Assembly: GCA_005889405.1 (NCBI GenBank)
Contig: VBFY01000012.1
Coordinates: 1 to 34,172 of the forward strand
Length of the DNA: 34,172 nucleotides
Reading direction: 5' to 3'
DNA from: Chloroflexota bacterium
GTDB taxonomy: Bacteria; Chloroflexota; Limnocylindria; P2-11E
Positions 1-3,143 of the stretch are shown in pieces. Position numbers and translations under genes: made by a program. Under the pieces are notes generated by a model that did no database searches, had not been told where the DNA came from, and saw only the letters and a program-made list of their open reading frames with translations. Each line of letters starts with the position of its first letter. The first letter of the stretch is position 1.

Positions 1-168
1 ATGCGCGAGGTGCGGACAATCAGCAGGAAAGACCGGTCGTACGTGCGATCGGAATCCTCACAGGCCATACGCCGGACTCGCTTTACTAGCGAGAAGATAT
101 GGTCGGAACCCTGCGGCGACGTAGGGAGCCAGCGGGAACAAGAAACCAGCTGGCCTTGTAACAAAGAG
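1..168 (+). ncRNA. Group I self-splicing intron in 23S rRNA, 3' half
   Basis: These bases do not resemble 23S rRNA, although the exon that follows does. They fold as the 3' part of a group I intron. A Q-like segment lies at 18-31 (AATCAGCAGGAAAG). A fully self-complementary P6/P6a hairpin spans 33-52. J6/7 is CTCA at 57-60. The P7 strand GGCCAT (63-68) pairs with ATGGTC (99-104). P8 is CTCGC/GCGAG (77-81 with 89-93). J8/7 is AAGATA (94-99), the hallmark S element. P9 is CCCTGCG/CGTAGGG (109-115 with 120-126) capped by a GCGA tetraloop, and P9.1 is GCCAGC/GCTGGC (128-133 with 149-154). The last base before the exon is G168, as expected for omega-G. The order matches the Tetrahymena-type core. 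The 5' part (P1 to P5) and any intron-borne endonuclease gene lie outside the window. The short ORF that opens at base 1 is not a gene. Confidence 0.88.
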
Positions 169-462
<294 letters not shown>

Positions 463-925: not shown

Positions 926-1046
<121 letters not shown>

Positions 1047-1047
1047 A

Positions 1048-1090
1048 AAACGACTTCGACGCGAAAGCGTGCGAGGTCGTTTTCTTTTTC
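1048..1090 (+). terminator. rRNA terminator after 5S
   Basis: AAACGACTTCG-ACGC-GAAA-GCGT-G-CGAGGTCGTTT forms a long stem with a GAAA tetraloop and one bulged G. It runs straight into a T-rich tract (TTTTCTTTTTC). This is a strong intrinsic terminator directly downstream of 5S. The next gene starts about 15 nt beyond it. Confidence 0.85.
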
Positions 1091-1105
1091 CGCCATCCTC
1101 TGCCT

Positions 1106-2059
1106 ATGTACGACGAGCTCCTGGACGAGTGGGCCATACCGCGGCCGCGCGAGCTTACCCGCGCGAGCTGGGGCATCAGCAACGAGACGTGGTTCGTCAG
1201 GAGCGAGGCCGGCGAGCACGTGCTGCGGCTGCACGTCCAGAAGCGCGTCGAGGCGATCAGGTTCGAGCACGAGCTGCTGCGCCGACTTGCCACCGCCGAG
1301 CTGACCTTCAGGACGCCGGTGCCGGTCGCGACCGAAGCGGGCGCCACATTTGTTCTCGAGGTCGACTCCGCTCGTCCCGCCGCGCTCTTCAGGCGGATCG
1401 CCGGCGAGCACCTCGACGACGACGACGTGGATGGCGTGGAGAGGGCTGCCGCCGCGTTCGCCACCCTGGACATCGCGCTCGGGGCGATCGATCGGACCGA
1501 CGTCGCGGCGCGGGCCTTCTCGGGCGACCTGCGGGCCGTCCATCCCGCGATCTCCGACCTCGCGCAGCTCGAGGAGATCGCTGGTCCGCGCGCGCGAGAG
1601 TTCGCCGAAGCGGCCGCCGAGAACTCTGCCGTCATCTACAGCTCGCTTCCCGTACAGCTCATTCACGGCGACTTCGCCTTCGGAAACATCCTCACGCGCG
1701 CAAGCCGCGTGCGTGGGGTGCTGGACTTCGAGTACGCCGGATGGAACGTGCGCGCGCTCGAGCTCGGCGGGATGCTGAGGAACGTGATCGCGAAGGGCAA
1801 TCGAGAGCGTCTGTGGCGGCCGGTGTTGCAGGGTTACCTCAGGACGCTTGCGCTCGATCCGGCTGAGATCGCTGCGCTCCCGGCATTGGTTCTTCTTCAA
1901 TCCGCGATCGTGCTCGTCTGGTGGGCGGGCCGCGTCGTTGAAGGCCACAGCAGGCCGCAAGGGCTCGCCGAGGGTGTCGATCGCGCGCTGATGATCCGGG
2001 ACTGGGTCGCGTCGAACAGCGTCCAGCTCGTTGCAGAGGCTCTCCGCACGAGCTCGTAA
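1106..2059 (+). CDS. Phosphotransferase (APH/ChoK-like) family protein
   Basis: This 317-residue protein belongs to the aminoglycoside phosphotransferase/choline kinase-like superfamily, cytosolic kinases that transfer a phosphate from ATP to a small molecule. The N-lobe contains a nucleotide-fold start (ASWGISNETWFV) and a lysine-containing segment (HVLRLHVQKR). The catalytic loop LIHGDFAFGNIL supplies the catalytic Asp and Asn, and the metal-binding segment VLDFEYAGWN supplies the DFE/D-like residue. The order and length fit the family. The closest general type is a homoserine kinase type II/APH-like protein, but the substrate cannot be told from sequence. ATG 1106 is used because it gives the complete N-lobe. 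No good Shine-Dalgarno is seen, and the gene starts right after the 5S terminator, so it may have a very short leader. It is not linked in function to the rRNA genes. Confidence 0.85.
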   Translation: MYDELLDEWAIPRPRELTRASWGISNETWFVRSEAGEHVLRLHVQKRVEAIRFEHELLRRLATAELTFRTPVPVATEAGATFVLEVDSARPAALFRRIAGEHLDDDDVDGVERAAAAFATLDIALGAIDRTDVAARAFSGDLRAVHPAISDLAQLEEIAGPRAREFAEAAAENSAVIYSSLPVQLIHGDFAFGNILTRASRVRGVLDFEYAGWNVRALELGGMLRNVIAKGNRERLWRPVLQGYLRTLALDPAEIAALPALVLLQSAIVLVWWAGRVVEGHSRPQGLAEGVDRALMIRDWVASNSVQLVAEALRTSS

Positions 2060-2088
2060 CGGCGCAATGCCGTGCCGACGTTCATGTC

Positions 2089-2505
2089 GTGGGGGAGTAT
2101 CCAGAGCGCGTGCTCCGGCGCGTCGTGCCGGATCCAGTGCAGATCCAGATCATCCTCGGCTCGCTTCTCGGGGACGGGCGGCTCGAGGGCTGTGCGGGCG
2201 CGCGACGACTTCGCATCACGCATCACCAAGGCCGCGCTGAGTACGTCTGGTGGAAATACGAGCGCCTCGGCACGTTCGCGGCTCACGCGCCGCTGCTGCG
2301 TGGCGACCAGCTCGAGTTCCACACCATCGCGCATCCGGTCTTCGACGATGTCGCGCCACTCTTCGCGGGCTCCGATCGCAAGCGCGTCCGAGAGCTGCTC
2401 GCGCCGCTCGGTCTCGCGGTGTGGATGACGGACGTGGGGCGTCTGAGGCTGCGGGCCGAGGTGTTCTTGCCTACCCAGCGCGCAGCGGCGCTGGTCGCGA
2501 GTTAG
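2089..2505 (+). CDS. Short LAGLIDADG-type endonuclease relative
   Basis: The 138-residue product aligns with LAGLIDADG DNA endonucleases of the one-chain, two-motif type. The first motif is IILGSLLGDGRLE (about residues 21-33) with its catalytic Asp intact. The family segments RLRITHHQGRAEYVWWKYE and FHTIAHPVFDDVAPLF follow. The second motif LAVWMTDVG corresponds to the usual LAIWxMDDG but has Val where the catalytic Asp before Gly is expected. The protein ends about 30 residues later, whereas relatives are generally longer, with a second full alpha/beta domain half. It is therefore either a decayed homing endonuclease or a domesticated DNA-binding protein. The start GTG 2089 is the earliest sensible one; other starts are possible. 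The last bases overlap, tail to tail, the sigma factor gene on the other strand. A group I intron in the neighbouring 23S gene makes a link plausible but unproven. Confidence 0.75.
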   Translation: MGEYPERVLRRVVPDPVQIQIILGSLLGDGRLEGCAGARRLRITHHQGRAEYVWWKYERLGTFAAHAPLLRGDQLEFHTIAHPVFDDVAPLFAGSDRKRVRELLAPLGLAVWMTDVGRLRLRAEVFLPTQRAAALVAS

Positions 2506-3143
2506 GCGGCGGCGGCCTGTGCGACTCGCGCCGACGCCGGAGCGGTGATGTGCACCGAAAGGTCACGCCGGAGACTTTGGATCGCGCGGCCGTGCAGCTG
2601 GCAGGCGCGCGCCTCGCTGACGCCCATCTTGGCCCCAGCCTCGCGCAGCGTGAGCTCATCGCCGTAATACCGCGCGATGACCTCACGCTGGCGAGCCGGA
2701 AGCCTCCCCAGCGCGTCCTGAACTCGTGTGTTGAGATCTTCTTGCTCGTACCGCTCGGTGAAGCCGTCGTCGACGGCCGGGCCCTGATGCGCACCCTTGT
2801 CCATGAGGACGTCGAGCGACACCGCGAGCTCGGCCGCCTCGGATCGACGGTCGGCGCGACCTCGCTCGTCAACACGACGAAGCTCGTCGACCACCGCACC
2901 GCGGATCCGCAGCGACGCGTAGGCCTCGAACGGCACGCCGCGGCGCGGATCAAAACGGTCGACGGCCGCGATAAGGCCGACCATCGCCGCGGAAGAAGCG
3001 TCATCCCGATCCGCGAGAGAGGTCGAAGGGATGCGCATGCAGCGGGCAATGCCGACGGCCAGATCCGCGTAGCGCTCGATCAGCGCTCCGCGCGACTCTG
3101 CGCAGCCCGCGCGACTCTTCGCCCACAACTGGGCTACGTCCAC
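2502..3143 (-). CDS. RNA polymerase sigma factor, FliA/WhiG-like
   Basis: This is a 213-residue sigma-70 family factor that directs RNA polymerase to alternative promoters. Region 2 is seen as DASSAAMVGLIAAVDRFDP followed by GVPFEAYASLRIRGAVVDE (the FliA/WhiG-type core helix and -10 recognition helix). Region 4 is seen as LPARQREVIARYYGDELT and a helix-turn-helix LREAGAKMGVSEARACQLH. The region 3 stretch between them is short. It starts at GTG 3143 with GGAGGGGGT about 5 nt upstream. The upstream 222 bp carries repeated palindromes and follows the GAF-receiver-LuxR gene on the same strand, so the two may form a regulatory pair. No anti-sigma factor gene is visible next to it. No flagellar genes are in the window, so the regulon is unknown. 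Confidence 0.88.
   Translation of the reverse strand: MDVAQLWAKSRAGCAESRGALIERYADLAVGIARCMRIPSTSLADRDDASSAAMVGLIAAVDRFDPRRGVPFEAYASLRIRGAVVDELRRVDERGRADRRSEAAELAVSLDVLMDKGAHQGPAVDDGFTERYEQEDLNTRVQDALGRLPARQREVIARYYGDELTLREAGAKMGVSEARACQLHGRAIQSLRRDLSVHITAPASARVAQAAAA

Follow-up and report, generated by a model that had tools for sequence, protein, structure and literature searches.

Features of the locus

The DNA studied here (hereafter the window) comes from a Chloroflexota bacterium and makes up the first 34,172 nucleotides of contig G000:C23. It opens with the end of an intron-bearing 23S rRNA gene and runs through the 5S rRNA gene and an APH-like gene to a short gene of LAGLIDADG_2 descent (the LAG gene), which faces a sigma factor gene (Table 1). 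With 87% identity, the intron fragment matched the 3' half of introns of about 300 nt found near E. coli 23S position ~2605 in two related genomes (G003 and G025), in agreement with the initial annotation, which had placed the gene close to an intron-bearing rRNA locus. These homologues carry no endonuclease ORF. A terminator-like hairpin follows the 5S rRNA gene in the window, and no sigma-70 promoter was found between window positions 900 and 3400.

Table 1. Position of the features of the locus within the window.
Feature	Position	Strand	Remarks
3' part of group I intron (E. coli 23S ~2605)	1-168	+	contig starts inside the intron
23S rRNA 3' exon, from E. coli ~2605	169-462	+	
5S rRNA gene	929-1045	+	
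APH/homoserine-kinase-like gene	1106-2059	+	variable cargo between 5S and LAG gene
Conserved non-coding block just 5' of start codon	2062-2088	+	GCAAG-N7-CCGA type
Short LAGLIDADG_2-derived gene (LAG gene), 138 aa	2089-2505	+	GTG start, TAG stop
Codon of Asp29, acidic residue of first motif (LLGDG)	2173-2175	+	kept
Codon of Val116, at second-motif Asp position (WMTDVG)	2434-2436	+	
FliA/WhiG-like sigma factor gene	2502-3143	-	convergent; stop overlaps LAG gene stop

The LAG protein matched Pfam family PF03161 (LAGLIDADG_2) with an E-value of 6.1e-15 and 56 bits, well over the curated cut-off of 25 bits for family membership, and no other Pfam model matched at E ≤ 1. Residues 20 to 130 aligned with positions 2 to 125 of the 168-position model, leaving positions 126 to 168 (about 43, the last quarter of the domain) absent. 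The protein had been described initially as truncated, with an intact first motif and a second motif deprived of its Asp, and this description held. The first motif is intact, and the Val of the second stands where 13 full-length relatives, located in introns, inteins or rRNA loci, have Asp (12) or Glu (1). With its significant Pfam match, its orthologues and its constrained reading frame, the ORF is confirmed as more than a chance frame.

Distribution, length and loss of the orthologues

A protein search of 121 genomes (the genome of the window and relatives) returned 20 with a match. Of the 28 genomes in the GTDB family to which the window belongs, 17 had the short form, with 51 to 88% identity in the 16 further ones, and a single divergent short copy was found in G028, which belongs to a different family of the same order. 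Fourteen short orthologues are full length (138 to 144 aa). The second-motif Asp is replaced in every one of the 16 readable copies, by Val (12), Leu (3) or Ala (1), and always by Val or Leu in the 14 full-length ones, while at the first-motif position 15 of 17 readable copies still have Asp, the exceptions being G018 (Asn) and G028 (Arg). As for the incomplete copies, that of G023 is cut by a contig edge, that of G010 has 121 aa, that of G003 lacks the second motif and that of G028 has diverged; the G003 and G010 copies are eroded. G006 retains a remnant, the last 24 codons, adjoining its sigma gene. In three g8 genomes (G011, G015 and G021), the contig spans the region from the 5S rRNA gene to the S1 gene, and neither the LAG gene nor the sigma gene was found. 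Absence is firm in these three genomes (plus the G006 remnant), and in G004, G005, G007, G012, G014, G017 and G019 a mere gap in the assembly may account for the missing locus. The short LAG gene is dispensable and has been lost in some lineages. A weak LAG-like match near the 5S rRNA gene of G011 (E ≥ 0.003) was dropped, being on the wrong strand.

Beyond this family and G028, the short form was not found among 177 genomes of the class (up to 23 candidates scored per genome) or 400 genomes of the phylum (up to 10 candidates scored per genome), where the other matches sat in frames of 265 to 732 aa. Searches of plasmids and of viral contigs gave no match to the LAG protein, a phage search gave one distant match, and a genome-contig database yielded three full-length intron relatives.

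The 5S rRNA gene lies upstream on the same contig and strand at 16 of 18 loci, the contigs of the other two (G023 and G024) starting too near the LAG gene to judge, and a FliA/WhiG-like sigma gene is convergent on the LAG gene at 17 of 18; in the exception, G009, the sigma gene is gone and an S1-domain gene follows. The distance from the 5S rRNA gene to the LAG gene is 71 to 133 nt in six genomes and 0.66 to 1.36 kb, with differing genes, in the other ten, indicating that this spot gains cargo while the LAG gene and its leader persist. Examples of the spot are window 1046-2061, L036 3292-4655, L040 2160-3131 and L033 413-1160; by eye, its contents vary by genome from an APH-like gene to a protein of about 200 aa, a membrane-protein-like or lipoprotein-like frame, or nothing. 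Separately, G002 alone has about 1 kb of DNA between the LAG and sigma genes (L030 2352-3356).

Purifying selection and phylogeny

Codon-model fits gave omega values of 0.031 (window and G002), 0.088, 0.067, 0.157, 0.125 and 0.023 for six close pairs, and omega = 1 was rejected in all six (2dlnL 44 to 136). A pair including the eroding G003 copy reached 0.248; eight pairs were tried, of which G020/G025 was left out as the fit did not converge. The Nei-Gojobori method gave a median pN/pS of 0.51 over 136 pairs, a value made noisy by saturation. Among 14 sequences, 15 of the 33 positions of the tail (residues 106 to 138) were invariant, as compared with 28 of 105 in residues 1 to 105, so that conservation does not fall off in the truncated tail and the residues past the second motif are not debris. 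The stretch PLGLAVW, D115 and R118, together with the basic residues R39, H45, R49, K56 and R59, were invariant in all 14 short orthologues. The LAG protein was also better conserved than its APH neighbor between the window and both G002 (88 vs. 73% identity) and G001 (66 vs. 39%).

In a tree of 30 sequences, comprising 17 short proteins (G028 included, the G023 fragment excluded) and 13 endonucleases, the short clade was split from the endonucleases by a long branch with 99/98 support, and its subtree broadly followed the genera. No endonuclease came out as nearest to the short clade. All 18 LAG loci lie outside rRNA genes, and the short proteins form one clade tracking genera, which is not the pattern of an intron-borne, intein-borne or mobile gene. 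The clade has thus been inherited vertically beside the rRNA operon. The initial annotation had suggested a displaced endonuclease of the 23S intron, which, given the long branch, is plausible only as a remote origin. Relatives were recovered within 23S introns as separate full-length endonucleases, one of them visibly decayed, and none of the short orthologues lies in such an intron.

The same annotation had left the choice between a decayed homing endonuclease and a free-standing domesticated DNA-binding protein to a comparison of homologue length and second-motif residue. A decaying, displaced endonuclease of no present function could account for the dead second motif, the missing tail and the erosion or loss of the gene in G006, G003 and G010, and decay does occur in this family: in G001, the LAGLIDADG_2 endonuclease ORF of a 448-nt intron at E. 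coli 23S position 2501 (L095 4604-5051) has been reduced to its C-terminal half (63% identity to the G025 endonuclease over 57 aa), a genuinely decayed homing endonuclease. Against this stand the purifying selection, the conserved tail and start, and the equal length in 14 family genomes. We therefore rejected decay of the short clade, given its conserved length, residues and omega well below 1, and regard it as highly improbable; the same short length and Val/Leu replacement throughout the full-length orthologues instead support domestication. Within one family, real decay is seen inside an intron and retention outside the 23S introns.

Predicted fold and comparison with known LAGLIDADG proteins

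AlphaFold2 was run with the window protein and stretches of six Parcubacteria/Nomurabacteria endonucleases, so the models are guided by endonucleases. The predicted fold comprises a complete first LAGLIDADG half, from helix 16-27 to helix 83-92, whose order (alpha-beta-beta-alpha-beta-beta-alpha) is supported by sequence and model alike. In the model, the second half is reduced to the second-motif helix (106-115) and a short tail of low confidence (residues 120 to 138 under pLDDT 50); the first half-domain and second LAGLIDADG helix are thus kept in the predicted structure and the rest of the second half is lost. The best structural matches were I-WcaI (Z 14.6, 123 residues aligned, 2.9 Å) and I-SceI (Z 14.0), followed by other LAGLIDADG proteins, WhiA among them; a first model had given Z-scores of 11.8 and 11.7.

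The likeness to I-SceI and I-WcaI covers both fold and motif order. A profile of the short family alone reached I-SceI residues 33 to 146 (E = 0.002) with both motifs lined up (the catalytic pair of I-SceI is Asp44 and Asp145), and a wider alignment covered the full domain (E = 2e-27). Unlike these enzymes, the short family has no second active-site Asp, retains very little of the second half past its first helix, and is non-intronic and vertically inherited. The LAG protein does not have the acidic residue in both motifs that marks an active I-SceI-type endonuclease. With one of the two metal-binding acids lost and the loss fixed across the clade, double-strand cleavage has presumably been lost as well, although an enzyme deprived of a single Asp might still nick DNA. 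For the I-SceI lineage, a life cycle has been described in which invasion is followed by degradation and loss (PMC13405050).

The closest relatives beyond the short clade are LAGLIDADG_2 endonucleases of 23S introns, from Parcubacteria/Nomurabacteria and from the same family (L026, L027, L028 and L040), at about 33 to 39% identity. They differ from the short clade in having frames of 192 to 264 aa, a DDG or DEG second motif and an intronic location. Other long frames were also noted: G028 has a full-length LAGLIDADG_2 frame (265 aa, WFMDDG) just 3' of its 23S rRNA gene and outside any intron (L047 4916-5302), and long LAGLIDADG_2-bearing frames occur in G006, G012 and G011 (L025, L065 and L066, respectively), of which that of G006 runs into RecA-like sequence and looks intein-like by eye.

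Introns of the 23S rRNA genes

Pieces of 23S rRNA genes were located by DNA search, a search with RF02541 having missed most partial ones; the 5' part of the gene was recovered in only 3 of the 28 genomes. LAG-bearing genomes had introns at E. coli positions 1931, 1952, 2501 and 2605, and an intron was usual wherever enough of the gene was assembled, so a role linked to introns, such as that of a maturase, is conceivable. The initial annotation would have seen domestication favored by short relatives in intron-free genomes, a situation that the assembled 23S sequences did not offer. G003 (L094 2777-3508, minus strand) and G028 (L047 2824-3555) have 732-nt introns at position 1931, with open stretches of about 200 aa that showed no match to the LAGLIDADG_2 proteins of this analysis.

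A trans-acting maturase, that is, a dead endonuclease whose retained or newly acquired RNA binding aids the splicing of mostly ORF-less 23S group I introns, would suit a gene that adjoins an rRNA operon whose 23S genes carry introns; 7 of 11 measured introns were shorter than 310 nt. LAGLIDADG maturases (bI3 and I-AniI, and the T. neapolitana protein) share the fold class (2ab5, Z 6.5; 1p8k, Z 6.4), but the LAG gene, unlike theirs, is not intron-encoded. There is also a precedent, as one study attributes maturase-like activity to a LAGLIDADG protein of a Thermotoga neapolitana 23S intron (PMC3984707). All five LAG-bearing genomes with sequence at position 1931 (G001, G003, G010, G020 and G028) showed an intron or its 3' end there, and G021, which lacks the LAG gene, had none, but this association of 5/5 vs. 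0/1 has a single informative LAG-lacking genome. G021 does have an intron at position 2501, showing that at least this intron is independent of the LAG protein. Moreover, the 23S rRNA gene of G002 is intron-free from E. coli position 2423 to 2790, and no sign of cotranscription was seen, the 5S rRNA gene of the window being followed by the terminator-like hairpin. We consider a maturase doubtful, although it ranks second after DNA regulation.

Alternatively, the protein could shield homing sites, a dead endonuclease occupying its conserved rDNA target and blocking the active endonucleases of 23S introns. Active-looking LAGLIDADG_2 endonucleases are indeed encoded in 23S rRNA genes of this family (a complete one in the 2501 intron of G025, another in G018), and the LAG gene is linked to rDNA. 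Nevertheless, 23S introns are present despite the LAG gene, G025 carries its intact endonuclease ORF and the LAG gene on the same contig, and the tree singles out no endonuclease as the source. Such a shield seems quite improbable.

The adjoining sigma factor and WhiA

The sigma gene product matched Pfam sigma regions 2 and 4, region 3 being without a match, and scored 126 bits with the FliA/WhiG model, below its cut-off of 189.6. WhiA (DUF199) invites comparison as a degenerate LAGLIDADG domain retained by hosts, with a similar fold (Z 7.5 with 3hyi, 98 residues aligned, 3.2 Å), and a FliA/WhiG-like sigma gene lies close to the LAG gene. Contrary to WhiA, the 138-aa LAG protein has no HTH domain (no such Pfam match), and it matches PF03161 rather than the WhiA model. 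A search of the genome with PF14527 hit only another locus, a separate WhiA-like one (G000:C99). As PF03161 was the sole match and a WhiA-like locus exists elsewhere in the genome, we rejected orthology with WhiA.

A partner of the adjoining sigma factor acting in the manner of WhiA, as cofactor or anti-sigma factor, would fit the convergent arrangement. Across the 28 family genomes, both genes were found in 16, the LAG gene alone in one, the sigma gene alone in two and neither in nine (Fisher p = 7e-5, a raw count that ignores kinship and missing MAG contigs). According to one report, Streptomyces WhiA is a degenerate LAGLIDADG protein that targets whiG, and direct contact with sigma-WhiG was proposed, although its authors could not detect that interaction (PMC3781837). 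In addition, G009 has a LAG gene without the sigma gene and G006 a sigma gene with a LAG remnant, and the whole stretch to the S1 and clpC genes tends to synteny, which makes the neighborhood argument by itself weak. We judge such a partnership unlikely.

A conserved block upstream and a candidate role

The 27 nt before the start codon had a mean pairwise identity of 48% (136 pairs), and 39% between genera (85 pairs), as compared with 26 to 29% for three stretches further upstream. A CAA and a CG about one helical turn apart were invariant in 17 of 17 copies. The block is not coding, since G009 has an in-frame stop and the spacing shifts in G009 and G003. In a scan of six g5 genomes, the LAG gene was the only place where the consensus occurred with zero mismatch; the g1 copies deviate from this g5 consensus, and a two-mismatch pattern did not recover them. 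A regulon was unsupported, the other matches having two mismatches, and no consensus structure pointed to an RNA hairpin. Resemblance to a 23S target was not above that of shuffled sequences for the six copies tried, so nothing links the block to an old homing site. We consider it a candidate binding site, promoter or leader.

Vertical inheritance and purifying selection mark the LAG protein as domesticated, with nuclease loss suggested by its residues. Since it has changed very little within a family of uncultured bacteria, it probably serves its host by binding DNA or RNA. The reading we prefer, though our confidence in it is evenly balanced, is a domesticated, cleavage-dead LAGLIDADG_2 protein, most likely a local, site-specific DNA-binding regulator. 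The basic sheet of the first half-domain would bind a specific nucleic-acid site, and the second-motif helix would pack against that of the first motif, forming a structural interface. What selection would then maintain is a nucleic-acid binder in which the first half-domain, basic residues included, is joined to the second-motif helix and to a short tail of new making. The setting of such a regulator would be the rRNA/sigma neighborhood, and the first candidate target is the block 5' of its own start codon. A bolder extension of this regulator seems to us rather unlikely: a minimal, HTH-less, I-SceI-like protein that would bind the 27-nt block and either cooperate with the convergent sigma factor or act on it. 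In that case a WhiG/FliA-type sigma circuit would have captured a LAGLIDADG protein a second time and independently, in convergence with WhiA.

Domesticated LAGLIDADG proteins are known, yeast HO being one. WhiA is the one well-known domestication of a homing endonuclease in bacteria, and its very wide distribution makes the route it took difficult to follow. Two papers treat WhiA as such a domesticated protein (PMC3984707, PMC3781837), and no description of a short family like the present one was found in the retrieved portions of the open-licence PMC literature. The LAG family is a separate, smaller, HTH-less domestication in another LAGLIDADG family, parallel to WhiA. It is narrow, comprising a single GTDB family plus one relative elsewhere in the order. 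Full-length cousins lie in introns of the same 23S genes, and some copies are intact, others eroding or mere remnants. How a selfish nuclease became a host protein, step by step, is therefore directly testable in this family, as is what the LAG protein is retained for.
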